A DNA stretch of 64,000 nucleotides from Serratia symbiotica. GTDB taxonomy: Bacteria > Pseudomonadota > Gammaproteobacteria > Enterobacterales > Enterobacteriaceae. Position numbers and translations under genes: made by a program. Below, piece by piece: positions 32,041-48,700 of this stretch (position 1 is the stretch's first letter; every line of letters begins with the position of its first letter). Below the pieces are notes generated by a model. It was not told the DNA's origin and made no database searches. It worked only from the letters and a program-made list of their open reading frames with translations. The stretch is from NCBI RefSeq assembly GCF_000821185.2, contig NZ_CP050855.1:2046001-2110000 (forward strand). Reading direction: 5' to 3'.

Positions 32041-33585
32041 TTATGCGGCGCTTAAGGCGTTATGGTCAATGGCCATGAGGGTCATCAGCCGTTCTTCATT
32101 GGCATCATCGCCGTGCAGTACACCGGTCACGCGCCCTTCGCTGAGTGTGATGATCCGATCGGACAGCGCAAGGATTTCCGGCAGATCCGAAGATATCACG
32201 ATCACCGCAACCCCCTGTTTAGCCATTTCGAACAGCACCTGATGAACTTCAGATTTGGTTCCCACGTCAATGCCGCGCGTAGGCTCATCAACGATCAGTA
32301 TCCGCAGATTAAGCGCCATACAACGCGCCAGAATGACCTTTTGCTGGTTACCGCCAGAGAGCTTACGCACCTCCTGCTCGGCGTTAACCATCTTGATTTG
32401 CAGCGCCTGACGGTAGAACTCAATTAGCGTGTCCTCTTTACGCGGGCTAATGAAATAGCGCCACGTCAGCAGCGATGAAAGACTGGAAAGCGTCAGGTTG
32501 TCGCGAATCGACAATCCAAGCGCTACCCCCTCTTTTTTACGGTCTTCCGGCACCAGCGCGATGCCCTGATCCAGCGCATGCATTGGGTTCTGTGGCTGAT
32601 AAGGTTTACCGTCCAATTCAAAGCTGCCAGTGGTGAATTTATCCGCCCCGAACAGGCACCGTGCCACTTCGGTACGCCCCGCGCCCACTAGGCCGGCAAT
32701 GCCAAGTATTTCCCCGGTGTGAACATGAAAACTAATGTCTTCCAGCGCGATACCAAACGGATCGAGCGGCGGCTTCACGCGGCTTAACCCCTTCACGGAC
32801 AGGCAAACGGGTTTATCTTCATGATGCGTGAGGCTTGGATCGCGGCGGTTAAACACTACGTCGCGCCCCACCATCAGGCGAATAATCTGCTCGACGTTGC
32901 TCCCGGCAACGTTGCCGGAACCGGTATAGCGGCCATCCTGGAACACCGTAAAGCGGTCGCACAGCTGGAATACTTCGTGCAAGCGGTGGGTAACGTAGAT
33001 AATGCTGACGCAGCGGCCTTTAAGTTCGCGTACCACGCGGTGCAGGCTTTCTACTTCACTATCACTGAGCGCAGCAGAAGGCTCATCCATGATGATTAGT
33101 TTGGCGTTAAGCGTCAGCGCACGGGCAATCTCCACCATCTGCTGCTGTGCCACGCTAAGCCGTGCTACGGTTGTCGTCGGCGCAACGTTAAGCTGTAAAT
33201 AGTCCAAAATGACCTGCGCTTTCTGGTTTACCGCTTTGCTGTCAACAATCAGGCGGCGGCACGGCTCGCGGCCAAGAAACATATTTTCTGCCACCGTCAT
33301 ATTCGGCAACAGGTTAAATTCCTGGTAGATGGTAATGATGCCTTTGTTTTGGCGCTCTACCGGTGAATCCTCTTGGCCAAGCGTTTCGCCGTTAAACCAG
33401 ATTTCACCACGTGTTTGCGGCTGCGCTCCAGCCAGCGCTTTTAGTAACGTAGATTTCCCCGCGCCGTTCTCCCCCAGCAGAGCGTGGATCTCTCCTTGCT
33501 CAACGGTGAGCTGGGCGCTGCTCAACGCCCACACGCCGGAGAAACTTTTCGCCAGGTCGATCACTTTCAGTAAGGGTTGCGACAT
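32041..33585 (-). CDS. Inositol/ribose-type ABC transporter ATPase (two domains)
   Basis: This tandem ATPase of the sugar-importer class has Walker A GENGAGKSTLLKAL (residue about 38) in the first half and GLVGAGRTEVARCL in the degenerate second half. LSVAQQQMVEIARAL and LSGGNQQKVILARCM are the two signature sequences. I choose ATG 33585 (MSQPLLKVIDLAKSF), giving 514 residues. It sits 47 bases after the binding-protein gene, in one operon with the permease. Confidence 0.88.
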   Translation of the reverse strand: MSQPLLKVIDLAKSFSGVWALSSAQLTVEQGEIHALLGENGAGKSTLLKALAGAQPQTRGEIWFNGETLGQEDSPVERQNKGIITIYQEFNLLPNMTVAENMFLGREPCRRLIVDSKAVNQKAQVILDYLQLNVAPTTTVARLSVAQQQMVEIARALTLNAKLIIMDEPSAALSDSEVESLHRVVRELKGRCVSIIYVTHRLHEVFQLCDRFTVFQDGRYTGSGNVAGSNVEQIIRLMVGRDVVFNRRDPSLTHHEDKPVCLSVKGLSRVKPPLDPFGIALEDISFHVHTGEILGIAGLVGAGRTEVARCLFGADKFTTGSFELDGKPYQPQNPMHALDQGIALVPEDRKKEGVALGLSIRDNLTLSSLSSLLTWRYFISPRKEDTLIEFYRQALQIKMVNAEQEVRKLSGGNQQKVILARCMALNLRILIVDEPTRGIDVGTKSEVHQVLFEMAKQGVAVIVISSDLPEILALSDRIITLSEGRVTGVLHGDDANEERLMTLMAIDHNALSAA

Positions 33586-33632
33586 CAGACTGTACCTCTG
33601 TAGCGCCCGCCCACAGGCGGGCATAGTCAGGC

Positions 33633-34562
33633 TTATTGACCGGCTTCGCCGATGCGCTCTGCTTGATCGAGGTTATCTTTAGTGATCATCGTCGGTGCGT
33701 AGTCGGCTCCAGTGATCGCCTTCTTCTCACGGATATTGGCAACCAACTGGCTCATCGAGGTTTTTACTGCGAAGCCAGGACGCTGATCGGCAGTCACCGC
33801 CAGCCAGCCGTCACGTACTCGCGCCAGCGCTTCTGGCACCGCATCAAAACCGGTCACCATCACTTCACCCGGCTTTAGGCTTTGCCCCCGCAGCGCTTCG
33901 ATAGCCCCCAGCGCCATATCGTCGTTTGCCGACAAAATCACCTGTGGCTTTTTCGGCAGCGAAGGCAGCACGCTTTCTACAATGCGCATCCCTTCAGAGC
34001 GCATCCAGTTGCCGCTCTGTTCGGCGACGATCTTATATTTATTACCACCGGCTTTCAGGCCGTCGTGGATCCCTTTAGTGCGTTCAATGTTGGAGGAAGA
34101 ACCCGGTTGGCCAGTTAGCAGAATGATCCTCGCGCCGTTAGGAAATTTTGACTTCACGAAGTCAGCCACCGCCAGGCCGCCTTTGTAGTTGTTCGCGCCG
34201 AAGTGCGGCACCTTTTTCGCGCTGGTAACCGAACGGTCGAGGGTGACCACCGGCAGTTTGGCATCTTGAATTTCACCTACCGCGCTGGATACAGCGTTGA
34301 CGTCATTCGGCGAAACGATAAACCCCAGAGCGCCGCCAGTGATGGCGTTTTCCAGGTCTGCCACCTGCTTCGGCGAACTGCCCTGGCTATCGAGTACTTG
34401 CAGCCTGACGCCCATCTCTTTGGCGGCTTTCACGGCGGTACGCTGCATATGAACTTCAAACGGCATCGCCAGGTTCGGAGTGCTAAAAACAATTTGTTCG
34501 TTTTCAGCCAGCGCCGGAGCCGTAGTCAGGGCAATGAGGGTGGCGAAGATGAGCTTTTTCAT
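33633..34562 (-). CDS. Periplasmic sugar/inositol-binding protein
   Basis: The first 19 residues form a Sec signal peptide (MKKLIFATLIALTTAPALA). The rest is a Periplasmic-binding protein type 1 fold (ENAITGGALGFIVSPNDVNA, SANDDMALGAIEALRGQ, VTGFDAVPEAL). It would deliver substrate to the permease/ATPase encoded after it. The iol neighbours point to inositol, but RbsB-like proteins bind several sugars. Length 309 residues. Confidence 0.87.
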   Translation of the reverse strand: MKKLIFATLIALTTAPALAENEQIVFSTPNLAMPFEVHMQRTAVKAAKEMGVRLQVLDSQGSSPKQVADLENAITGGALGFIVSPNDVNAVSSAVGEIQDAKLPVVTLDRSVTSAKKVPHFGANNYKGGLAVADFVKSKFPNGARIILLTGQPGSSSNIERTKGIHDGLKAGGNKYKIVAEQSGNWMRSEGMRIVESVLPSLPKKPQVILSANDDMALGAIEALRGQSLKPGEVMVTGFDAVPEALARVRDGWLAVTADQRPGFAVKTSMSQLVANIREKKAITGADYAPTMITKDNLDQAERIGEAGQ

Positions 34563-34596
34563 GATTCTCTCTTAATGTGTGTAGGGTCATTGAAAG

Positions 34597-35411
34597 TTAC
34601 AAAGCAACTTCACGCTGGCTACTCAGTGACTCCAGCGCCTTGTCGGCCAGGTACAGGGCGCGTTCACCATCTTCGCCGCTGCACTCAGGTTTGGTCTCGC
34701 AGCACAGGACGGCAATAAAGTGCTGCCATTCAGCGGCGTAAGCATCTTTGTAGCGCTGGAGGAAGAAGTGTTCAGGCAGCGCGCTGTTACAGCTGCTGGC
34801 GCTGAAGTGTTCAACCTGATTTTAGGTTGCTGCCCTGAGCATACTACTGACACTGGCTCTTCACCCATAATGAAACGCGCCATATCGAAGTCGTGGATCG
34901 TCATATCACGGAATATACCGCCGGAAACACGCACGTACTCAGCCAATGGCGGAGACGGATCGCGGGAGATAATCACCAAAGATTCCGGTTTGCCGATGCT
35001 CCCCTGCACCGCTTCATTTTTCACTTTGCGGAACTGCAGGTCAAAACGGTGGTTAAAACCAATAAAGAGTGAAACATTATGCTCTTTCACCACTTTCAAG
35101 CAGTCACGCACACGGACCAGATCGAGGGGCACCGGCTTTTCGCAGAAGATAGCTTTGCCGTGCTTTGCGGCGAGTGCGATAAGGTCGGCATGAGTCTCTG
35201 TCGCCGAGGCAATCATCACCGCATAAACGTTAGGATCGGTCATTGCTTCATTCATACTCTGTTGGCGTGCCTGGTATTTGCTGGCAATGCATGCGGCGTT
35301 TTCTTCGTTTGGATCGACAACCGCCCAGAGGGGGGAGTATGGATGGGCGGCAATATTCGCGGCGTGGATCTGGCCGATGCGGCCGGCTCCCAGTAAAGCA
35401 ATGTTAAACAT
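34597..35411 (-). pseudogene. iolG: iolG: myo-inositol 2-dehydrogenase with internal deletion
   Basis: The N-terminal half (MFNIALLGAGRIGQIHAANI, AIFCEKPVPLDL, DMTIHDFDMARFIMGEEPVS) is intact IolG. After that homology jumps. Read in another frame, the sequence resumes with PEHFFLQRYKDAYAAEWQHF, reaches CSGEDGERALYLADKALESL and ends SSQREVAL-stop at 34597. Compared with the usual length of about 335 residues, around 60 are missing and the frame is lost. This enzyme starts myo-inositol catabolism, so the pathway is blocked at its first step. Confidence 0.87.
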
Positions 35412-35679
35412 AGCGGCTCCCGATATTGGCACAATTGTTGGGTCATGTGCCAGATTCCCCCAACTCTGCGTGCAGTTGGATGACAACCCCTTAAATAAAG
35501 AATTTATTTCATTTCAATACAAGATGAAAAATTCATTTTTTGCCATTTAGTTAACATTTTGATGATTTATAAGATTCTTTTTGATGCCAAAATCACAAAA
35601 TTTAGCAAATTGGAACAGTACTAGATGAGGGAGCTGCGCGTGAGAGCGCGCACGTCACAAGAGGGAGAACCATGAAGAG
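35412..35679. promoter_or_regulatory. Upstream region of the inositol operon
   Basis: This AT-rich region of 268 bases lies before iolG and must have held the operon promoter. It contains poly-A and poly-T tracts and no ORF. No iolR repressor gene is in the window. I can not assign a -35/-10 pair with confidence. Confidence 0.35.
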
Positions 35680-35897
35680 ATAAATGAAATGAACATTCCG
35701 GTGCCGTCATCGGGTGGTCAATGTCATCGCGAATGACAGCCCAACGTGCGAGTGATGTGCTGCAAATGGCACTCTGGCGGCGTAAACGTCCGGAAAATGT
35801 CATTGTCCATACCAACCGTGGTGGTCAGTACTGCTCAGCGGAATATCAGGTGTTGCTGAAACGACATAATCTGCGCAGGAGTATGAGCGCAGATTAG
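35680..35897 (+). pseudogene. IS3-family OrfB fragment
   Basis: The + strand reads [20 protein letters not shown], then [20 protein letters not shown] and [20 protein letters not shown], and ends RSMSAD. This is the middle of an IS3 transposase, including the second catalytic Asp region (HTNRGGQY, normally HSDRGxQY). Both ends are missing. Confidence 0.65.
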
Positions 35898-35919
35898 ACG
35901 TCAACTACCTTGGCCAGCG

Positions 35920-37513
35920 TGTTGCCTCATCAATTAATGTTACTTTTGTGCTTCACATAAAATTTTACCATCAGCACGAGTTCCATAGACCAGTTCTCTG
36001 ACCACTTTGGTCCGCCATTCCTGCAGCCTGCGTTGCAGCGTTCTACGATGACCTTCAGTAAATTTACCAGGGTATTCGTCATCAAGTTTGAGCAGTAATT
36101 CTGTACTGCCTAACTGAGGTTCATTTCTCAGCCAGACCTCTATTTCATTCCAGACATCCGCGAAGGGATCCACCCGGGTTCGCCAGTGACGGGGCTTCGA
36201 TGGTGCCGGATGATGAAGGGGATTCACAGCACCTTCCTGCCATGCTGTAGAGAGTCCCTGTAAGAACGCGGTTAAGTCGCTGTTTTTGTCCCCAACCGGA
36301 TCCCCAACAGCTATTCACGCTAACTGATATTGATAAAGACGAATATTTTCCAGTAATTTCAGTGGGTCAAAAGCATGAATACGTCAAAATGGTGCCGGAG
36401 TTCAGAACGCAAGGAATGAAGCTCGATCAGGCGATTGTAGGGTGTTTTAGGGGCATCATGCCTGCGGGCCGCTTTCCCACCAATGCGTTGTGCATCCGGC
36501 AGTTTGAACGATAGTTGAAAAAAAGTAATAAATAATCGGTTAGCCATATACATCTGGTTCATCGCTTTTACTGCATGTTCACCATCAAGACGGCCGTATC
36601 CCGCCAGCTTTCTGACCACAGAACCATTTTTTTGCTCTATCCAGGCCTGATCGTTTTTCCGGTATGGGCGGGAACACGTCAGCGCGATACATCTGGCAGA
36701 ACAGTATTCAAATAAGGCTTCGTTGATAAATTCAGCACCATTATCAACATCAAGGCCGAGAGGCGGGAATGGCAGACTCTTTTGAACCTTATCAACGGCC
36801 CGGATGATCAACTCAGCATTACGTGCTGGCAGCGCCACACATTCTGTCCATCCGCTGGCGATATCTGTCAGCGATAGCGTCCACAAAAAGGTACCGGAGA
36901 GATGGCGACCACAGTGTGCCACGAGATCCATCTCCATAAACCCCGGTGAATGGCGTTCATGCTCAGTGAACATCCTGACCGGGATACTTTTACTGACGCA
37001 ATTAACCACCCGGTTACGCTTTTTACCGGCGATGGTATGCGCCTCTTTCAACAGGCGATCGATTGACGATGCACTGACTTTCAACACCTGCTCGCGGAGT
37101 GCCGGATCCAGACAGAGATGACCATGCTTTTCCATCGCCGGAATGAGCTGGGGTAGTAAAGCCTTGAGACGCTTGCCGCATAAACGGTCTGAAGCCTCCC
37201 AAAGAACCAACAGAGCCTGCTGAACGGCTGCACCATAAACAGAACGAGTCGGGGCTGAGCGCCGCTGTTGGCTGCCATTGGTGACGGTACCATTCAGTAG
37301 CCGGATTGCTGACTTGCGATGATACCCACTGACCAGTATGAACTCTTCGAGAATTCGGGTTTTCTCGGCTTTAATGGCAGCTTGATAGCGTGTTTTCAGC
37401 GCCCGTAGCAACTGAAGACGGGTGTCCATTGGCAAAACAATGCATTGCTCACAGGTGCACCTTTGGCTGGTTATTTGTCACCTCACCAAAGTAACAATTT
37501 CAATGAGGCAACA
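35920..37513 (-). mobile_element. IS element with integrase-core transposase, about 1.6 kb
   Basis: The ends are TGTTGCCTCAT at 35920-35930 and its reverse complement ATGAGGCAACA at 37503-37513. The similarity continues inwards (GTTACTTT on both sides), so these are terminal inverted repeats of about 25 bases with mismatches. The only gene inside is the frameshifted transposase. I see no target duplication. The family is uncertain; an unclassified (ISNCY) or IS481-like integrase-core element fits best. Confidence 0.75.
35940..37435 (-). pseudogene. Integrase-core (DDE) transposase, frameshifted near the C-terminus
   Basis: The first 350 codons are open (RALKTRYQAAIKAEKTRILE, VSGYHRKSAIRLLNG). 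They include DDE blocks MEMDLVAHCG, LDVDNGAEFINEAL and the region YRKNDQAWIEQKNGSVVRKL. At about 36380 the frame changes: the expected FDPLKLLENIRLYQYQLA lies in another frame, giving a premature stop. The C-terminal tail, NPLHHPAPSKPRHWRTRVDPF to LQRRLQEWRTKVV, is open at 35940-36227. Related transposases carry these parts in one protein. Confidence 0.75.
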
Positions 37514-37555
37514 GTGTGTGTTCGGTAACAAAAATGCTGAGTCAATGCGTCGGAC

Positions 37556-37745
37556 GGGGTAATATTACAATCGCTGAGTCCGCCACAGCGCCTGTGGCGG
37601 ACTCAGCGCGGAACAGTTTGAATACCAGACGCTCGCATAGCGAGCGTGTCCACATTACGCGGATAAGATCACGACTCCGTGCGGGCGGCTGACGCAGTGG
37701 GGCTGACGACGCTGCCTGTACGGGGTAGGAGCCGAAGGGGGCAGG
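37556..37745. other. GC-rich island with two strong hairpins
   Basis: This 190-base GC-rich block separates the IS element from the AT-rich microcin region. It starts with GGGGTAATATTACAATCG and contains a 17-base perfect stem with a 3-base loop at 37572-37608 and an 8-base stem at 37629-37647. It then reads GGCGGCTGACGCAGTGGGGC and GTACGGGGTAGGAGCCGAAG. No ORF is convincing. Compact hairpins like these are found at plasmid replication, transfer or resolution sites. Confidence 0.45.
37572..37608. repeat. Perfect 17-base inverted repeat with 3-base loop
   Basis: The left arm is CGCTGAGTCCGCCACAG, the loop CGC, and the right arm CTGTGGCGGACTCAGCG. No T-tract follows on either strand, so it is not an ordinary intrinsic terminator. 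A second hairpin (ACGCTCGC-ATA-GCGAGCGT) lies 20 bases further. Confidence 0.85.
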
Positions 37746-38217
37746 AAAAAATTTAAGTAATCTTAAGGAAGTTATTAGAAGTACATTCAGCATAAAAAAC
37801 AAGCTAAAAAACCACACAAAGGAATACAGGCGATTGATAAGTATAGAAAAAAACTGGATGGATATTATTTTTTCCTTTCTTTTTTCTATTCGTGAATTAT
37901 TTTTGATGCATAAATCACCTTCACATATCTAACTGTAATACCTAAGAAAAAAACCTCATTGCGTTTATTGTTTAATAAAAAAATAAGATTAGGATCGAAT
38001 CCTATTAAACTAAAAAATAAGCTATCACCTATGTAAATTTTCAAAAATTAGATCCCAACACGATTTTGTGAACTTCTTACAAAAATCTTCTTATAATTTC
38101 GTCTAAATGCCATTTAAATCAGAGAGTTTTTTAAGATAGCAATCAAAGTTTTTTCACACCAAAAAAACACCCTCAATTAATTCATCTTAATCTTAATGTG
38201 AGGCAGTATTTTTTTTG
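37746..38217. other. AT-rich non-coding region upstream of the microcin operon
   Basis: Some 470 bases of very AT-rich DNA contain no credible gene. A TATAAT at 38092-38097 may be a second promoter element, but its -35 match is weak. A short inverted repeat TAGGAT-CGA-ATCCTA lies at 37990-38004. The composition differs sharply from the core genes and is typical of horizontally acquired DNA that H-NS silences in enterobacteria. Confidence 0.45.
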
Positions 38218-38246
38218 TTGACGCAATTAGTTTTCCATGTTTTTAT
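38218..38246 (+). promoter_or_regulatory. Candidate promoter of the microcin operon
   Basis: TTGACG at 38218-38223 and TTTTAT at 38241-38246 are separated by 17 bases, the preferred spacing. They match the sigma-70 boxes at 5 of 6 and 4 of 6 positions. Transcription would start near 38253, about 70 bases before mccA. No experimental support is available. Confidence 0.45.
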
Positions 38247-38256
38247 CTTCCTTGTT

Positions 38257-38283
38257 AAGTGACCTTTATCATTCACGTCACTT
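38257..38283. promoter_or_regulatory. Inverted repeat in the mccA leader or operator
   Basis: AAGTGAC (38257-38263) and GTCACTT (38277-38283) are a perfect 7-base inverted repeat with a 13-base spacer. The position, just after the proposed promoter, suits an operator or an mRNA hairpin. It does not match the CRP consensus well, although CRP regulates the E. coli microcin C operon. Confidence 0.4.
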
Positions 38284-38323
38284 TTCTAAATTTTAATAAA
38301 TTATTAATATTAAGGAGAACATC

Positions 38324-38347
38324 ATGATTGGCGGATTAAATAACTAA
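38324..38347 (+). CDS. mccA: Microcin C-type heptapeptide precursor, MIGGLNN
   Basis: ATG 38324 opens a seven-codon ORF encoding Met-Ile-Gly-Gly-Leu-Asn-Asn, ending in TAA. TAAGGAG at 38311-38317 gives a strong Shine-Dalgarno site six bases before the ATG. An in-frame stop lies nine codons upstream, so no longer version starting at ATG exists. The E. coli precursor MccA is MRTGNAN: also seven residues, with Met1, Gly4 and the essential C-terminal Asn7 shared. MccB converts that Asn to a phosphoramidate bond with AMP. The product would be a Trojan-horse inhibitor of aspartyl-tRNA synthetase. The assignment rests on length, terminal Asn, ribosome site and position directly before mccB. Confidence 0.85.
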   Translation: MIGGLNN

Positions 38348-38354
38348 GCTATAA

Positions 38355-38374
38355 GGGTGGCCATCATGCCACCC
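38355..38374 (+). terminator. Hairpin between mccA and mccB
   Basis: GGGTGGC (38355-38361), loop CATCAT and GCCACCC (38368-38374) form a 7-base GC stem eight bases after the mccA stop. There is no good T-tract, so readthrough is expected. In the E. coli operon a hairpin at this place yields abundant short mccA mRNA and some full-length mRNA; the same role is inferred here. Confidence 0.7.
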
Positions 38375-38404
38375 AACCTATATTTAACTTATAAGGGTAC
38401 TACT

Positions 38405-39451
38405 TTGAATGATATTTATTCACTAGGAAGATATGTTATCTTTCAGGAGCTAGGTGACACTCGACTTATTGGCGTAGGCTCTAAACAGACAGTTATTGAA
38501 TCGCAGTTCATGTGGCAATGCATTATCAATCTATCAGAGCTTGCCCGGAGACGTCCTACTTTACAAAAGCTTCGGGAATATGATGAAAATTCATCAAATC
38601 CTGGAACACTCCAATTCCTTCTCGATAATAATTTCATAATCAAAGATACCGATTTAATTTCAACAAGTCGTTACAACCGTTCCCTATACTACTATCAAAG
38701 CATTGGGCTTTCTCCAGAAGATGTGGAAACATCCCTAAAAAAATCAAGAGTAACTATTCTCGGGTGTGGTGGAATAGGCAACCATATTGGTGCCGCACTA
38801 GCTACTAACGGCATTGGAACAATCAATTTAGTTGATGGCGATCATATTGAACTATCCAATCTTACCAGACAAATACTCTTTGATGAAAATGATATTGACG
38901 CTCGAAAGGTAGATGTTCTTGCCAAGCGTTTACGTGAAAGAAACTCACACTGTCGGATACATACTTTTGATACTCATATTAACACCATAGATGATCTTAA
39001 AGAAATACCAGAGTCAGATATTATCATTGTCTCTGCTGATTCATCAGGTATAGTAAATCTTGTAAATATTTTTTGTGTTGAAAACAAAAAGACATTTATA
39101 AATGTCGGCTACATGAACGATATAGCAATTTGGGGTCCATTTGTTATTCCAGGAGAAACAGGTTGTTATGCATGTGGTAGCCTACGCATTGGGCTAATAG
39201 GTAAGGATAAAAATCTCAATAGTAATGAAGATCGTTTAAGAAAATTAAACCAAGATTTCAAAAGTGCTACCTTTCCACCAATAAATGCTACGGCGTCGGC
39301 ATTGGCAACGAGCGACATCATACGCTATCTTGCAGGTTCAAAATCTATATCATCGCTTAATAAAAGAATTGGTTTTCACGATCTAACGCTTAAGTTAGAA
39401 ACACAAGATTTCTCGATAAATGAAGAATGTATAGTATGTCAAAATCGGTAA
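38405..39451 (+). CDS. mccB: Microcin C peptide adenylyltransferase (ThiF/E1-like)
   Basis: MccB activates and adenylates the C-terminal Asn of the MccA peptide. The ThiF/E1 ATP-binding core ILGCGGIGNHIGAALATNGI is near residue 120. It is followed by DGDHIELSNLTRQILFDEND (nucleotide-binding Asp and Arg) and NVGYMNDIAIWGPFVIPG. Zinc ligands are CYAC (about 257-260) and CIVC near the C-terminus. The E. coli MccB motifs NLTRQVLF, AGYVNDIAVFGPLYVPGKTG and SLNKRIG all have counterparts. I propose TTG 38405 (LNDIYSLGRYV) since it aligns with the E. coli start MDYILGRYV, is preceded by AAGGG and gives 348 residues; ATG 38366 or GTG 38357 in the hairpin are alternatives. Codon use is AT-rich. Confidence 0.92.
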   Translation: MNDIYSLGRYVIFQELGDTRLIGVGSKQTVIESQFMWQCIINLSELARRRPTLQKLREYDENSSNPGTLQFLLDNNFIIKDTDLISTSRYNRSLYYYQSIGLSPEDVETSLKKSRVTILGCGGIGNHIGAALATNGIGTINLVDGDHIELSNLTRQILFDENDIDARKVDVLAKRLRERNSHCRIHTFDTHINTIDDLKEIPESDIIIVSADSSGIVNLVNIFCVENKKTFINVGYMNDIAIWGPFVIPGETGCYACGSLRIGLIGKDKNLNSNEDRLRKLNQDFKSATFPPINATASALATSDIIRYLAGSKSISSLNKRIGFHDLTLKLETQDFSINEECIVCQNR

Positions 39452-40605
39452 GTTTAGTTAATGGTGTTGGGATCTCATTCGGGTGCGTCCGAATTCTTAT
39501 CGGCGCATTTTCTGTTGTATATCTCCTCGACCATGGGTTGACACTGACTGAAATTGGATGGATAAAATCATTCCAAGCTGCCGTGATTGTATTTGTGGAT
39601 ATACCACTATCTCACATTTCTGATAAATACAGCAGAAAGTTTTCCATTACTCTTAGTGCTTTTTGCGCTTCTATATGGTTATATCTCACAGGGGCAAGCG
39701 ATCACTTTTATGGTTTTTTGGTTGCTGAATTTTTCAATGCTTTATCTTTAGGCTTAATGTCAGGAACTTTTAATTCATATCTTTATGATGTTTCTAAAAA
39801 TAATGATAAAAATGAAATCGCTGAGAAAATTTTTTCACGATATCAGAAAAATCATTTTTTCTTCATGGGAATTTTCTCTCTTGTCGGGGCTGTTCTTTAC
39901 TCACAGAATAATATTAATGTCTGGTATATTTCTGCTGCACTTATGTTTTTAGTTTTCATATCCTCTCTTTTCCTACCAAAAGACAACCTCAATAAATCTG
40001 GTAATTCCGCAACTCTAAAAGAGACTTTAAATAATATCATGACTTCAGTTTTTGGTAAGAAGTCTGATACTAAAAACTTTATTTTTATCAACATTGTTTT
40101 TTCTATGTTCTTACAAATACTAATTCAATATTGGCAGGTCATGATGACCTACAGTTCAGAGTTTCTTGATAAAAAGATATTACTCGGCGTTGTATTTTTC
40201 GCAATTCTAATGTCGCAATCTCTTGCAGGGCTTGCTATAGAGAGATCTAAAAACAAACTAGTGCTAAAAATAACTTTATCTTTCTCGTTGCTTTTATCTG
40301 GATCTTTTTCTGTTATCAGCATGTATTATCCAATTTTAACTTTACCATCGTTATGTTCGATTTTCTTCACTATGTCTACATTTGCCAGCCTAAGTCTCTC
40401 TCAGTTAGTAGAAAATACACCAAGAGATATTAGGTCCACATTACTATCTTCACTCGCTGTATTATCTAAGATAGTCATGTTTATTATAATGCCCATTTCT
40501 GCAATACTCATTAATAAACTTGGTGTGAACTTTAATCTTATCCTCATCCTCACCATGTTTTTTTGCATCAAATACATCATTACTCCAACAGACAACAGAG
40601 AATGA
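39436..40605 (+). CDS. mccC: Microcin C exporter, MFS family
   Basis: This 389-residue membrane protein has twelve hydrophobic segments in the two-times-six arrangement of the major facilitator superfamily. A typical MFS loop motif (DIPLSHISDKYSRKFSIT) lies between helices 2 and 3. In E. coli, MccC pumps out the microcin and gives partial immunity. The start overlaps mccB by 16 bases, indicating coupled translation; ATG 39436 (MSKSVSLVNG) is more likely than ATG 39427. Composition is as AT-rich as mccB. No mccD, mccE or mccF follows. Confidence 0.88.
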   Translation: MSKSVSLVNGVGISFGCVRILIGAFSVVYLLDHGLTLTEIGWIKSFQAAVIVFVDIPLSHISDKYSRKFSITLSAFCASIWLYLTGASDHFYGFLVAEFFNALSLGLMSGTFNSYLYDVSKNNDKNEIAEKIFSRYQKNHFFFMGIFSLVGAVLYSQNNINVWYISAALMFLVFISSLFLPKDNLNKSGNSATLKETLNNIMTSVFGKKSDTKNFIFINIVFSMFLQILIQYWQVMMTYSSEFLDKKILLGVVFFAILMSQSLAGLAIERSKNKLVLKITLSFSLLLSGSFSVISMYYPILTLPSLCSIFFTMSTFASLSLSQLVENTPRDIRSTLLSSLAVLSKIVMFIIMPISAILINKLGVNFNLILILTMFFCIKYIITPTDNRE

Positions 40606-40810
40606 GGCGAAATGTGTTAAGCAGTGAATAAATTACGTCAAGGGGCGTGACGCTCAACGGAACGGTTTAACACGCAAAGGATTTTTGTCCGATAAATCAG
40701 AACACTAAGGACAGTTAAAAACAGGGATAAAATGGCATCTTTTAAATCGTAAAATGGCAAATAGTGTACACGTATTTCTGTTAATCGATTTTTCAGACAG
40801 TTTTCTCGCC
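40606..40810. other. Non-coding tail of the microcin block
   Basis: AT-rich sequence without a real ORF. It contains GACGCTCAACGGAACGG, which mirrors the GAAACGAAAAC/GTTCC motifs further on only weakly. It separates mccC from the plasmid-origin-like match at 40811. Confidence 0.3.
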
Positions 40811-40845
40811 TAAACGTGAGTTTTCGTTCCACTGAGCATCAGCCC
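40811..40845 (+). other. ColE1/pMB1 plasmid origin-flank match
   Basis: The segment contains AACGTGAGTTTTCGTTCCAC, then TGAGC and, with one difference and one missing base, the CGTCAGACCCC that follows it in ColE1/pMB1 plasmids. As I recall, this string flanks the RNA II/origin region of those plasmids. RNA I/RNA II itself is not present; IS3 debris cuts in directly after. Confidence 0.6.
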
Positions 40846-40933
40846 CCTGGTAGAGATCCTCGACCAGAATTACACTTATTCAGAGGCCGCGAAGGCGATG
40901 AATATCAGCCTGTCTGCCATCAACCGCTGGGGG
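40841..40933 (+). pseudogene. IS3-family OrfA fragment
   Basis: The + strand reads LVEILDQNYTYSEAAKAMN, then ISLSAINRWG. It matches the helix-turn-helix portion of the OrfA at 27812-28012. It has been cut on the right by the IS1-type end at 40934. Confidence 0.65.
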
Positions 40934-41216
40934 GGTAATGACTCCAATTGGTTGAATTTGATCTACAATGCAACCTTGTGAGGTTTACTCTTGGCTTGCG
41001 TTAATGTTTATTGTCCCCGTTGTGATTCTGCTTTGGTTTATCGCCATAGTCAAAATCCTAAAGGCCAAAGCTGTTTCCTTTGTCGTGAATGCTGTTCTGT
41101 ATTCCAGTTGACCTACACTTATCAGGCCAGAAAACCGGGGGTTAAAGGGCTAATCGTTGATATGGCCTTTAACGGCGCAGGCATTCGGGATACGGCAAGA
41201 ACGCCAAAAGTCGGTA
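40934..41216 (+). pseudogene. IS1-family remnant (InsA part)
   Basis: GGTAATGACTCCAA at 40934 is an IS1 terminal repeat. It is followed by an InsA-like frame, [20 protein letters not shown] to [20 protein letters not shown] and [17 protein letters not shown], containing the zinc-finger cysteines. Homology ends near 41216, where pflA begins. InsB and the right end are lost. The frame runs on into pflA, but the fusion ORF is accidental. Confidence 0.75.
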
Positions 41217-41661
41217 TCAACACCTGTTTAGACACCAACGACTTTATCCGCCGCTATGACCTGGTGATCGACGAACTGCTGGATGCCACCGATTTGGTGG
41301 ATGCTGGATCTGAAACAGACGAACGACGATATCCACCAAAGCCTTGGTTGGCGTTTCTAACTGGCGCATGTTGGAATGCGCTCGCTACCTGGCAAAGCGC
41401 AATCAGCACTCATAGGTTGGCTATGTCATTGTGCCGGGCTGGTCAGACGATGACAAGTCAGCGCATATGCTGGGTGAGTTTACCCAAAACATGACCAACA
41501 TCGAGAAAATAGAACTGCTGCCTTATCACCAACTGGGCAAGCACAAATGGGAAGTAATGGGTGAAAAGTACACATTAGACGGCGTACAGCCACCTAAGCC
41601 CGATACGATGGATAACCTCAAAGCCATCCTTGAGAGCTACAGCCATAAAGTGATGTATTGA
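41217..41661 (+). pseudogene. pflA: pflA 3' part: pyruvate formate-lyase activating enzyme
   Basis: The fragment reads [20 protein letters not shown], then [10 protein letters not shown] with a shift, then [20 protein letters not shown] and YHQLGKHKWEVMGEKYTLDG, ending SYSHKVMY-stop. This is the C-terminal 60 percent of PflA. The radical-SAM CxxxCxxC motif is in the lost N-terminus. Frameshifts lie near 41305 and 41400. With pflB and focA absent, anaerobic pyruvate cleavage by this system is gone. Confidence 0.85.
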
Positions 41662-41879
41662 ACCATTGCGACCCAATGCGAAAACCAGCAGCATAGGCGA
41701 GTGTTTTATTTTTTCAGCAATATCAGCGCCAGCGCAGCAGTCATAACAAACAGCCAACGATCAGCCTAATTTGCACGGCAAGCAAAAAAGGCAGGTGTTT
41801 CCGACAGATGACTCGGTGCGGCTGGCGATGTGTCATTTTATTATCGAGTTCAGTGATCGCCTAAGCGATCGCGGTAATA

Positions 41880-42015
41880 CGGTATCAGCGCCTGGGGATT
41901 AATCAACCTCATCCCTGAGGTTCGGCCTGCGGCCCAGCGCAAGCACTGTTCAAATCGGTTACCGACCGATTTGAACAGCATTGCCGCCTTCCTGCCACTC
42001 GAATTATTTAGGGTA
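41880..42015 (+). repeat. Dispersed repeat family C, copy 1
   Basis: The unit reads GCCTGGGGATTAATCAACC, CTGTTCAAATCGGTTACCGA, CCGATTTGAACAGCATTGCC and ends CTCGAATTATTTAGGGTATA. The inverted repeat CTGTTCAAATCGGT/ACCGATTTGAACAG can form a long stem. It lies just past the serS stop; a second copy flanks the other side of serS. Confidence 0.8.
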
Positions 42016-42037
42016 TAGCATTATTTATAGGCGCTTT

Positions 42038-43348
<1,311 letters not shown>

Positions 43349-43374
43349 TTATTGAAAGAAAGTTTGTGTTTTAT

Positions 43375-43573
43375 ACCCATTACGCTTCAAGTTGCCTGTG
43401 CGCTAGCTTTCCACTCTCACTCCAGTCACTTAACAGTGTAAGCTTCTGGGGATGAATAAACCTCATCCTTGGGGTTAAGCCTGCAGCCAGCGCAAACGCT
43501 GTTCAAATCGGTTCCTGACCGATTTGAACAGCGTTTGCGCCTTCCTGCAACTCGAATTATTTAGGGTATATAC
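43375..43573 (+). repeat. Dispersed repeat family C, copy 2, with a 23-base hairpin
   Basis: The copy begins ATACCCATTACGCTTCAAG and ends CTCGAATTATTTAGGGTATA. Between them, 43490-43512 and 43518-43540 are perfect inverted repeats of 23 bases with a 5-base loop (TCCTG). It separates serS and rarA, neighbours in E. coli. Copy 1 has the same core with mismatches in the outer stem. Confidence 0.85.
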
Positions 43574-43634
43574 GGCTGATCTATCGCCATCTCAAGGAAG
43601 AGTGATACCCGCTAACCTTACCGCAACGGCAACG

Positions 43635-44978
43635 CTAGCGGTAGCGTTTTGTCTGGCTATTTTGATCCTGTTCAGCCAGCCATGCCAGCTTCTCGCCAAT
43701 TTTACCTTCCAACCCACGAGAGGTCGGTTGATAGTAACGCGTATTGACCATTTCTGGCGGAAAATAGCTCTCACCGGCAGCGTAGGCGTGGGCTTCGTCG
43801 TGGGCGTAACGGTACTCAGCCCCCAGCCCCATCGCTTTCATCAGCTTGGTCGGCGCGTTGCGCAGATGTTCCGGCACATCGTAATCAGCCTGTTCTCTGG
43901 CATCGCGCATCGCCGCTTTGAAGGCGGTATAAACCGCATTGCTCTTCGGCGCACAGGCCAGGTAGACGATTGCCTGTGCGATGGCGCGTTCGCCTTCCGC
44001 AGGCCCCACGCGTGTGAAACAATCCCAGGCGGCGATCGCCACCTGCATGCCGCGCGGATCGGCGTTGCCGATATCTTCAGAGGCAATCGCCAGCAGACGG
44101 CGCGCCACGTACAGCGGGTCACCGCCAGCAGTGATAATACGTGCATACCAGTACAGTGCGGCGTCTGGTGCCGAACCGCGCACCGATTTATGTAATGCAG
44201 AGATCAGGTCGTAATAGCGATCCCCTTTATTGTCGAAGCGTGCACTGCGTTCACCCAATACCTCTTTCAGCAGTTCGGGCGTCAGTACTTTCATCCCTTT
44301 GGTGTCGATTTCCGCCATATCAGCCATCATTTCCAAGCTGTTCAGCGCCCGGCGCGCGTCACCCCCCACCAGTTCCGACAACATACGGCGCGTCTCTTCC
44401 GGCAATTCGATATTCTGGCCACCTAAGCCACGCTTACTGTCGTTCATCGCCTGATCCAGTACCTGGCTGATGTCCCCAGCAGCCAACGCCTTTAGCAGAT
44501 AAACGCGGGCGCGCGACAACAATGCCGAGTTGAGTTCAAATGAGGGGTTTTCGGTGGTCGCACCGATAAAGGTGATGGTGCCGTCTTCGATATGTGGCAG
44601 AAAAGCATCCTGCTGGCTTTTATTGAACCGGTGTACCTCATCAACAAACAGGATAGTGCGGCGGCCAGCTCTACGGTTTTGCCGTGCATGCTCGATCGCC
44701 TCGCGGATTTCTTTAATGCCGGAAGTGACAGCGGAAATGCGCTCGACATCCGCCTGACCATAACGGCCGATTAACTCTGCCAGCGTTGTTTTCCCGGTGC
44801 CGGGTGGGCCCCACAAAATCATCGAGTGCAACTGCCCGGCTTCAATGGCGCGTGGCAGCGGCTTGCCAGCGGCCAACAGATGCTGCTGGCCAATATATTG
44901 CACCAACGTGGTCGGCCGCATGCGGGCGGCCAACGGCTGGAACTCATTTTGGAAAAAATCAAGCGACAGATTACTCAC
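43635..44978 (-). CDS. rarA: Replication-associated recombination protein A
   Basis: RarA (MgsA) is an AAA+ ATPase related to clamp loaders that acts at stalled replication forks. Walker A is [17 protein letters not shown] (about residues 55-71) and Walker [18 protein letters not shown] (about 108-124). The 447-residue length matches the E. coli protein. It begins seven bases after the lolA stop, the conserved lolA-rarA pair. Confidence 0.96.
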
Positions 44979-44985
44979 TGGTGCC

Positions 44986-45597
44986 TCACTGACGCTGGTC
45001 GTCCAGCGTCACCCCCTGTGGCGGGATAAATGTGAATTTGGTGGCATCGGCAGAAACGTCCTGCTGGCTTTTCAGCACATAGGTACTGCGTTGCCCATCC
45101 TGCTCCACCGCAGCGAAACTGCGGATAGTGCCGCTATGAGTCACAGTAATGGCGAACTGCTTCAGGTTACCGCTGCTGGATTTTGGCGTCAGCTCAAAAT
45201 CATCGCCTTTCTGCTTAACCTGGTATTGTTTCCAATCATTGGCATTGTTGCGGGTGATCAGCATGAACGGTGTCTTGCCGGTGGCATTCTTCAGCCAGGT
45301 CGCCGTCACCTGCTCAACGAATGGGTTATAGAACCATAGGGTCTGACCATCGGAAATTAACACACTCTCATCCGGCGAGGTCATGTGCCAATTAAACAAG
45401 TTCGGGCGTTTTATCCACAGTTCGCCTGCGCCCTGTTGAACCGCAGCGCCATCACTACTGGTGACAGTCTGAGAGAAGTGGGCGTGGAAGCTGTTCACTT
45501 TAGCCAGACGATTTTGCAAATCCTGCGTGGCGTCAGCCAGCACGGAGGTGGACGCAAATCCCGAAAGCAGACAGCAGGCCACTAACAGTTTTTTCAT
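44986..45597 (-). CDS. lolA: Outer-membrane lipoprotein carrier protein
   Basis: LolA is the periplasmic chaperone that carries lipoproteins from LolCDE to LolB. Residues 1-21 are a Sec signal peptide ([21 protein letters not shown]). The mature part has the LolA beta-barrel features, for example [31 protein letters not shown] and [11 protein letters not shown]. The 203-residue length is standard. It sits between ftsK and rarA. Confidence 0.96.
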
Positions 45598-45732
45598 TAT
45601 TCCAGATACCTTATGAAATACGTTAACCGCAAGGCGGTGCCGTGCGAGCCAAATTACCCCTAACCACCGTTACCCTATCCGAAGCCACTTCACCTATTAC
45701 AAGCAAAAGCCAGGGGTTACACTTCTTTGCAC

Positions 45733-45753
45733 AAGGGCCGCTTAGCGGCCCTT
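45733..45753. terminator. Probable ftsK terminator
   Basis: AAGGGCCGC (45733-45741), loop TTA and GCGGCCCTT (45745-45753) form a 9-base GC-rich stem 31 bases beyond the ftsK stop. The U-tract on the minus strand is poor, so termination may be partial. Confidence 0.5.
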
Positions 45754-45783
45754 TATAATTGAATCACAGTGGTTAGACGTGCG

Positions 45784-48700
45784 TCAGTCTTGCCGTGGTG
45801 GTGCCAGTACCTCGCGGTTGCCGTTATGCCCCTGCTCGCTGACAATACCCTGCGCTTCCATCTGTTCGATGATACGCGCGGCGCGGTTATAGCCAATGCG
45901 GAATTGGCGCTGAACGCCGGAGATGGAGGCACGGCGCTTTTCCACCACGAACTCCACCGCTTGATCAAACAGCGGATCAAGATCGTCATCGCCCTCCATG
46001 CCGCCTGCACTCCCTTCACCCTCTTCACCGCCACTGAGTATCCCCTCTTTATACTGGGGACGCTCACGCGCTTTCCAATCCTTAACCACGGCGTGCACTT
46101 CCTGATCACGCACAAATGCGCCATGCACGCGTACCGGAATTGAGGAGTTCGGTGCCAGATACAGCATATCCCCCATCCCTAACAGCGATTCGGCACCGCC
46201 TTGGTCAAGGATAGTACGCGAATCAATCTTGCTGGATACGGTAAAAGCAATACGTGTTGGGATATTAGCCTTGATCAGGCCGGTGATCACATCCACCGAC
46301 GGACGCTGGGTCGCCAGCACCAGGTGGATACCCGCCGCACGCGCTTTCTGTGCCAGACGGGCAATGAGTTCTTCGACTTTTTTGCCGACTGTCATGATCA
46401 GATCGGCGAATTCGTCAACCATCACCACGATATAAGGCTCTTTCTCCAACACAGGTGGTGTGATGTCCATGCTATCTGTCGGTTTCCAGAATGGATCTGG
46501 GATCGGGCGGCCCATAGCTTCAGCCTGATCGACGCGCTCGTTGTAGCCAGCCAGGTTACGCACGCCCAATGCAGACATCAGCTTGTAACGGCGTTCCATC
46601 TCCGCCACACACCAGCGCAATGCATTGGCGGCATCTTTCATATCGGTCACTACGTCGGTCAACAGATGCGGTATACCTTCGTAGACTGACAGCTCCAGCA
46701 TTTTTGGGTCGATCATGATAAAGCGCACCTCTTTCGGCGTCGCCTTATACAAGATGCTCAGGATCATCGCGTTGACCCCGACTGATTTACCTGAACCCGT
46801 AGTACCTGCCACCAACAGGTGCGGCATTTTGCCCAGTTCGGCTACCACCGGCTCGCCAGAGATATCTTTACCCAGCACGATAGACAATGGCGACGGATTG
46901 TCGCGGAATGCTGGGCAATCCAGTACTTCTCGCAGATACACGGTTTGACGTTTGGTGTTCGGCAACTCCAGCCCTACATACGGTCTGCCGGGGATCACTT
47001 CAACCACGCGCACCGCCGAGGTTGACAGTGAACGAGCCAGATCACGCGATAGGTTGGAAATACGCGCGGCTTTGACCCCCGGTGCTAAATCTAGCTCGAA
47101 ACGGGTGATCACCGGCCCCGGTAGAATATCCACTACCTCGGCTTTGACCCGGTAATCAGCCAGGCTAGCTTCCACCAAACGTGCTTTTTGTTCTAGCTCA
47201 AAGGAATCCACCGGTTCCACCTCTTTCGGGGCTTCTGCCAGCAGAGCTAGTGTTGGCAGCGGGGTAGTCGGCTTCTGCAACGGCATATCATTGCGCATCA
47301 GAAACGGGTGGATCAGGCTATCTATCTCAGGTTGTGATGCAGCAGGCTTAGACTGACCACAAGGGCTATCACTTTGCTGTTCAGTACGCTCTTCCAACGA
47401 GGGTGACAAACTGAGCTGTGGCTCGCTAGGATCATCGTCCACCAGACCGTCCATCGGGGAAAAACTGAAAGCGTTGTAGGTATCAACTTGGCTTACCGCA
47501 GGGGGTTGCACAGCAGGCTTATGTTGCCCATAGCGTGCCTGCTGCTGTTCACTGAACGCCTGGTGCAGCACGGCGCGCTGCTGGCCGTCTTCGTGTTGCC
47601 GGTCAGCAGCGTCAGGCTGTGGTGGCTCTACCGCACCCTGACGCTGTTTATGCTCGGCGGCGCGCTGCGAAGGCAGCTTGATACCATAGGACGCCAGTGC
47701 GCGCCGGGTGGGAATACGTACCGGATTTGGTCGGGGCAATTCAGGGCCTATGCCCTGTTTGACCTGCGGGTTGCCATCGCTGGTCGCGGCAAAGGCTGGC
47801 ATAAAGGTATTAGCGACACCCGCAGCTACCTGAGATTTCTTGCTGCCAAACAGCGTGTCCGCTGCATCAGCAAATGAACTGCTGACGTTGCTCTGTGATG
47901 GCGCGGAGAAATCAAACGGCGAATGATCGCGCCGCAGCGTTGCATCAGGTTCCGGCAAATTGTTGTCACATCGTGGTTCATCAGCGTGCTGATAGGGATC
48001 AACGGTGCAAGCCACCTTAGGTGCTGGCGTTTCCTCTGGGATCTCAACTGAATACAGCGGCGGTAGTGTATTTTCCGCTAGTACGTTCATCGGATGCTGG
48101 CTGACCGAAGCCCGCTCAACGCTCATCGGCGATGCCTGCACAATAATCGGCGCAGCTTCACTATCATCATCCTCGTTATTGCTGGCGCAGATGCCGCTGA
48201 ACAGCGGCTCCCCAGAATCTGCCACCGCCACTTCGGCAGTTTCCACCAGGACTTTAGGCGCGGATAACAGTACATCGTCATCTAGCGTAGCCGCCCCTTG
48301 CACTGTGGGTTTAGGCTCATCGACGGCATAGCCACTGTCATCGCTGTAATTGAGTTCTTCGCGGCGCGAACGGTTGGTCATAAAGGTAGCAACACCCAGC
48401 ACCGCACCGCCGATCTTCTCGGCGATCATCAGCCATGACCAGCCGGTGAACAGCGTCACCCCTGCCGCCCAAATACAAAGTAGCACCAGCGTAGCACCAA
48501 CACCGCTAAATTGAGGTAGCATGGCATTACTGAGTAAGCTACCGATAACACCGCCGGATGCAAAGTAATAAAGATCGTCAACATTCAGCGCGGCCAGGCC
48601 GCAGAAGGTGAACACCATCGCCAGCGTGCCGATCAGACGCAATGAGAGCGCAAAATAGTCGATATACTCGCTGCTGCCACGCTGCTGGCGATAGGCTACC

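Follow-up and report, generated by a model that had tools for sequence, protein, structure and literature searches.

Microcin C (mcc) clusters are the closest described systems to the locus reported here. Their published heptapeptide precursors vary in sequence, and have in common a length of seven, a final Asn and a strong ribosome site (PMC6495379). The same paper names the E. coli peptide as MRTGNAN, describes a terminator between E. coli mccA and mccB, and indicates that mccABC alone should suffice for an active compound. The product of Yersinia-type clusters is described as a peptidyl-cytidylate with a carboxymethyl group, and MccE2 as an enzyme that acetylates the processed payload (PMC9239234). 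We analysed a stretch of 64,000 nucleotides from Serratia symbiotica (assembly GCF_000821185.2, contig NZ_CP050855.1, positions 2,046,001 to 2,110,000 of the forward strand), referred to below as the window. An initial annotation had proposed that it contains mccA, mccB and mccC in that order, with the heptapeptide MIGGLNN. This is confirmed: an intact mccABC operon is located at positions 38324–40605, and all three frames are intact (Table 1).

The operon and its relatives

The precursor encoded by mccA has seven residues, with Met first and Asn last, and is preceded by the ribosome-binding site AAGGAG. Both strands of the 64 kb window were searched for seven-codon open reading frames (ORFs) that start with ATG, end in Asn and carry such a ribosome site. 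There was one match, which is mccA itself, and it is therefore very unlikely that an ORF of this kind would occur by chance within about 100 bases of mccB. The likeness to E. coli MccA that had been pointed out (length seven, Gly4 and final Asn) is borne out by the comparison of MRTGNAN with MIGGLNN. It had also been expected that such a peptide would be missed by annotation. This holds as far as can be seen, in that the heptapeptides are unlisted in the feature tables of the E. coli, Borrelia and Helicobacter pylori plasmids, tables which are known to be incomplete.

A predicted terminator-like hairpin follows mccA, in the same place as the terminator of the E. coli cluster. The 75 bases from the mccA stop onward fold with −18.0 kcal/mol (z −3.2 against mononucleotide shuffles). 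The hairpin is not followed by a T run and was not listed in a consensus terminator scan, and an Rfam search of positions 37800–41200 gave no match.

The mccB product matches the structure of E. coli MccB (PDB 3h5n) with an E value of 2e-77 over nearly its whole length, and the Pfam ThiF family with 1.2e-41. The next-best families are PaaA (4e-17) and ThiF (5e-16), and the protein falls well under the equivalog cut-offs for both ThiF (104.7 of 275 bits) and MoeB (84.9 of 377 bits). The ATP motif GCGGIGN, together with D144, D146, N152, R155, Q156 and K168, is invariant in all seven aligned MccB proteins, as are Cys254, Cys257 and Cys342; Cys345 is common to the window protein and that of E. 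coli. These four cysteines are presumably zinc binders. The initial annotation was thus correct in describing an MccB-type adenylyltransferase with its ATP motif and cysteines intact. Identity is 40% to E. coli MccB, and 29–32% to the Borrelia coriaceae and H. pylori proteins. The TTG start gives the same length as the window's own protein in the database (P0001), while an alternative reading of 364 residues would begin at GTG 38357, inside the hairpin.

The gene directly 3′ of mccB belongs to the major facilitator superfamily (MFS), as had been stated, with a match to MFS_1 at E 7e-17, and is predicted to encode the exporter. It is 31–34% identical over nearly its full length to the MFS genes of two related loci (L035 and L037, below), and it resembles E. 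coli MccC over the N-terminal half.

The position of the protein in a tree had been set beforehand as a refuting test for its assignment to MccB, and the outcome does not refute that assignment. A total of 122 rows were assembled, of which 69 were used for a quick tree and 52 for a careful one. In the careful tree, five ThiF/MoeB-like rows split off at 100/100, and the window protein lies inside the MccB group. It joins metagenome proteins (74%, 65% and 60% identity) and the protein of Pectobacterium sp. F1-1 (59%) at 100/100. A group of 23 rows, with a support of 85/96 and hence a bootstrap below 95, holds the window protein, E. coli MccB and the proteins of four loci with predicted heptapeptides (L035–L038). 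The Borrelia and H. pylori proteins are placed outside this group, and a Pantoea row with a long branch (L046) is placed inside the wider MccB group. The row labels are our own: we take L003 and L004 to be ThiF/MoeB, L005 to be TcdA, and L046 to be ‘PaaA-like’. In the quick tree, L005, from the window genome (branch 9.32), fell among long-type MccB rows; this was taken as a long-branch artefact and the row was dropped from the careful tree. From a set of 111 proteins, the window's own (P0001) was left out, as were P0010, P0039, P0069, P0072, P0080, P0096, P0100 and P0105 (mostly fragments) and P0109–P0111. Rows were added for seven of 56 relatives of a second MccB in the same genome (see below) and for three of 28 weak loci (L007, L014 and L017).

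A search with mccB at E 1e-40 matched 5 of 392 genomes of the same bacterial family, one of them being the window's own. A search of the class with the Pectobacterium protein (P0004), at the same threshold, matched one of 369 genomes, again the window's own. Plasmid loci were fetched for three of the 35 records with 80% cover, namely E. coli MccC7-H22 (L039), B. coriaceae lp23 (L040) and H. pylori pHPv225d (L041). The region upstream of mccB was scanned in these three and in four loci from the same bacterial family (L035–L038). All seven have a seven-codon, Asn-ending ORF with a ribosome site at the same place, encoding (L035 to L041, in order) MISIASN, MEHTTNN, MISSGSN, MDHSMNN, MRTGNAN, MRGKTLN and MKLSYRN. 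The folds after the heptapeptide stop range from −16.4 to −22.7 kcal/mol (z −1.3 to −6.2), and the MFS frame adjoining mccB resembles window mccC in every case (E 1e-53 to 1e-6). This layout agrees with the published description of the precursors (PMC6495379). In the locus with MISSGSN (L037:1189–2334, genome G361), the first quarter of mccB is out of frame with the remainder, and this locus may be broken or misassembled.

Genomic setting, a decayed copy and a second cluster

The window genome comprises 3.55 Mb in three contigs, the largest of 3.35 Mb. The operon has a GC content of 0.35, compared to 0.52 for the window, and the island is bordered on both sides by transposase sequences (Table 1). 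The S. symbiotica clade is represented here by the window genome (G000) and three others, G412, G413 and G414, the last being strain Sm Midelt (same assembly as locus L006). In SerS, the window genome has 99% identity to G414, 97% to G412, 95% to G413 and at most 94% to the other 26 Serratia genomes, which places the window genome within this clade.

Among the 30 Serratia genomes, matches to mccB at E 1e-40 were found in the window genome and Sm Midelt alone, and Sm Midelt is the nearest named relative of the locus. A separate search gave 29 loci, of which 28 are weaker ThiF relatives (26–37% identity) and the other is L006, the one included in the precursor scans, which also covered L042 and L035–L041. 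The flanks and the island are colinear between the window and L006, at 93–94% identity and with gaps. MIGGLNN is kept in L006 with one synonymous change to mccA, and L042, also from Sm Midelt, has the same peptide. The fold after mccA is weak in L006, at −9.0 kcal/mol. Compared with the window over 218 codons, L006 mccB has six stops and four gap columns; the genome search counted six and two TAA in its two pieces. L006 has nothing corresponding to window positions 39062–40159 (1098 bases, covering the end of mccB and most of mccC), and its mccC remnant consists of residues 246–389 alone, with one stop. At L006:6699–7254, about 1.1 kb of mccB-mccC is replaced by a 556-base insert of other DNA, which by eye may belong to a group II intron or a similar element.

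The decayed copy lies beyond what the initial annotation could see, as do the absence of a match to YejA (below) and a second mcc cluster in the same genome. A search of the genome with E. coli MccE gave a match at C1:25968–27615, in two adjacent frames encoding a decarboxylase-like MccE1 and a GNAT MccE2-like protein, the latter sharing 32% identity with the end of MccE. The cluster as a whole spans L050:8414–15630, which is approximately 20414–27630 of contig C1 of G000. The precursor gene is followed by a hairpin, and then by an MFS gene whose product shares 29% identity with E. coli MccC. Next comes an MccB-methyltransferase fusion of 577 residues, which over its full length shares 55% identity with a protein of Yersinia similis, and 93% with one that the database assigns to Serratia marcescens (P0112). 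After the fusion, in order, are genes for a CmoA-like carboxy-SAM synthase, a YqcI/YcgG-like protein (under the Pfam cut-off), a further methyltransferase and the MccE1 and MccE2 proteins. The CmoA-like gene looks broken: its open frame covers model positions 123–233 of 239, with stops before the frame by eye. By its predicted parts the cluster fits the Yersinia type, and the decoration of its product may have been lost with the CmoA-like gene, unless the housekeeping CmoA serves. The second cluster was found in one of the 30 Serratia genomes, the window's own; P0112 counts against its being lacking elsewhere in Serratia. When plasmids were searched with the second MccB, no match reached 80% cover of the query.

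Table 1. Coordinates of the features discussed. Positions refer to the window, except for the last row (L050 is C1:12001–32000 of the same genome).
Feature	Position	Strand	Remarks
mccA ribosome-binding site	38312..38317	+	AAGGAG, read directly in sequence
mccA	38324..38347	+	Seven codons, MIGGLNN, and stop; ATG 38324, TAA 38345-38347
Hairpin between mccA and mccB	38355..38374	+	GGGTGGC-CATCAT-GCCACCC; 7-bp stem; starts 7 bases past the mccA stop
mccB	38405..39451	+	Predicted ThiF/E1-type peptide adenylyltransferase, 348 aa; TTG start
mccC	39436..40605	+	Predicted MFS exporter, 389 aa; ATG 39436 (392 aa from ATG 39427); overlaps the mccB end
Transposase ORF	36359..37435	-	rve integrase core; upstream of the island
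IS1 InsA-like transposase fragment	40991..41494	+	Downstream of the island
Second-cluster precursor	L050:8414-8533		39 residues, Asn-ending, MNNSTIKPTKKLKVKRVDVTKLKEQQKKVLSCGMTCGAN

Predicted product, immunity and alternative explanations

On gene content, order and intactness, homology, the tree and the layout elsewhere, we consider it highly probable that the locus is an intact minimal mccABC operon of the E. coli/H. pylori heptapeptide type, acquired horizontally by the S. symbiotica lineage. The interpretation offered by the initial annotation is thus supported. The chemistry, export and target described here are modelled on the characterised family. Translation of the short mccA message would give formyl-MIGGLNN. 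Using two ATP, MccB would convert the C-terminal Asn to isoAsn joined to AMP by an N–P bond, and the peptidyl-adenylate would be exported by MccC. In sensitive neighbours, a peptide transporter would take up the compound and the peptide part would be trimmed; the isoasparaginyl-AMP released would block aspartyl-tRNA synthetase. Because neither mccD nor mccE lies beside the operon, the product is expected to be a plain peptidyl-AMP. Production of this microcin C compound, adenylation of MIGGLNN and killing activity are predicted from the sequence.

The ORFs of 33000–46000 include no visible immunity gene beside the operon. A search of the genome for MccF gave no match, which is a weak negative as the search had no positive control, and a search for the Peptidase_S66 family gave a single S66 gene, which is probably LdcA. 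The binding protein of the microcin C importer is YejA. The importer search was made with YejA; yejA was found in 26 of the 30 Serratia genomes (in two pieces in G398), and in none of the four of the S. symbiotica clade. Loss of YejA is explicable by genome reduction alone, and other importers may exist. Immunity would be provided by export through MccC, by the lack of the YejABEF route (as judged from YejA) and perhaps by MccE2-like acetylation, which the protein of the second cluster might supply in trans. Two observations speak against immunity specific to MccE2: two additional weak matches of GNAT type to MccE occur in the genome (27% and 30%), and the MccE2-like protein resembles RimL under the cut-off (55 of 184 bits).

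A number of observations weigh against a functional mccABC operon. According to a review, Thr3 substitutions in E. coli MccA impair E. coli MccB (PMC12250964), and residue 3 of MIGGLNN is Gly. The window MccC shares only 23% identity with its E. coli counterpart, over an alignment of 229 residues. The 101-base hairpin stretch is only moderately unusual against dinucleotide shuffles (z −1.69), and a consensus promoter scan found no site upstream of mccA. In the sister strain, mccB is split over two frames within its first 219 codons, with five stops in one frame and one in the other; the operon is dead there, and so may be dispensable in the window genome. It could therefore be an intact but silent relic, not yet eroded, that makes no antibiotic in its present host. 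The missing promoter consensus points this way, as do the loss in the sister strain, both by these stops and frame change and by replacement of about 1.1 kb, and the apparently broken CmoA-like gene of the second cluster. We nevertheless regard a relic as somewhat unlikely, given that none of three overlapping or adjacent frames is broken although insertion elements abound in the genome, and that the fold after mccA is kept in the window whereas it is weak in the sister strain.

That the ThiF protein is some other E1-like enzyme, of the MoeB, ThiF or PaaA type, with MIGGLNN a chance ORF, is scarcely credible. The ThiF fold is common to all of these and general ThiF models do match, but the match to MccB is far stronger than those to PaaA and ThiF, the equivalog cut-offs are far missed, the tree places the protein with MccB, and the seven-codon ORF is unique, at the expected place, and encodes an identical peptide in the sister strain. 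A housekeeping MoeB/ThiF/E1 identity was rejected on the same cut-offs, match and tree placement. We also think it very unlikely that the peptide-nucleotide is mainly a signal, or acts on a eukaryotic host and not on bacteria. Culturable S. symbiotica is described as living in the aphid gut and plant phloem (PMC8275996), which would suit such a role, but the sequence holds nothing that points to it.

If the operon is functional, a wider picture can be drawn, which we offer tentatively and think rather unlikely as a whole. One aphid-associated Serratia would have two mcc systems of different chemistry, one making a heptapeptide peptidyl-adenylate and the other, with its long precursor, probably a cytidylate, and one MccE2-like acetyltransferase would guard against both payloads. 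Clade-wide loss of YejABEF, as suggested by YejA, would make kin insensitive, so that the compounds would hit only bacteria of other kinds in the aphid gut or phloem, perhaps other symbionts. The weapon would then decay as strains turn host-restricted, as in Sm Midelt. The aphid has an S66 carboxypeptidase, LdcA, reported to be MccF-like, laterally acquired and 11.6-fold more expressed in Buchnera-housing bacteriocytes (PMC2662799); this enzyme might blunt microcin C compounds.

With this locus and the second cluster, a group of aphid symbionts gains a predicted peptide-nucleotide antibiotic and another system of the kind. What lifts the locus above the routine is that one aphid symbiont has two mcc systems, that no YejA was found in the clade, and that a relative whose genome is smaller has the operon in decayed form. 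The natural series of intact, decayed and absent operons asks when symbionts give up their weapons, and provides a test of whether importer loss serves as immunity. A culturable S. symbiotica strain is reported to have been genetically engineered (PMC7851701).

Comparison with known systems

Clusters for massetolide, syringopeptin, rhizomide and luminmide are named in a published survey that applied antiSMASH to culturable S. symbiotica; the word ‘microcin’ is absent from its main text (PMC8275996). ‘Serratia’ is absent from the main texts of PMC6495379, PMC7157772, PMC9239234 and PMC12250964, as far as these were available. Neither MIGGLNN nor the combination of Serratia symbiotica and mccB was found in the literature searched, which did not extend to Table S6 of PMC8275996 or Table S1 of PMC6495379.

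The Yersinia-type peptidyl-cytidylate cluster resembles the second cluster and not the window operon, in having a longer precursor, an MccB-methyltransferase fusion and MccE1/MccE2. The window operon has neither a long precursor of 17–56 residues nor an MccB of that other clade. Its closest named MccB relative outside Serratia is the ThiF protein of Pectobacterium sp. F1-1.

With the E. coli C7 cluster (MccC7-H22) the operon shares an Asn-ending heptapeptide with Gly4, a hairpin after mccA and an MFS exporter gene next in order. It differs in its peptide, MIGGLNN and not MRTGNAN, and in being located on a 3.35 Mb contig and not on a plasmid. The E. coli cluster also has mccD, mccE and mccF, whereas none of these adjoins the window mccABC among the ORFs of 33000–46000. 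The MccE-like genes of this genome sit roughly 2 Mb from the operon, in the second cluster. The H. pylori and B. coriaceae clusters are plasmid-borne, come from other hosts and have the less similar MccB proteins noted above, but are like the window operon in having a heptapeptide, MccB and an MFS gene in the same order, with no mccD, mccE or mccF listed adjoining. The operon is of a known kind, a minimal mccABC cluster, with a peptide, MIGGLNN, that was not found in the literature searched.
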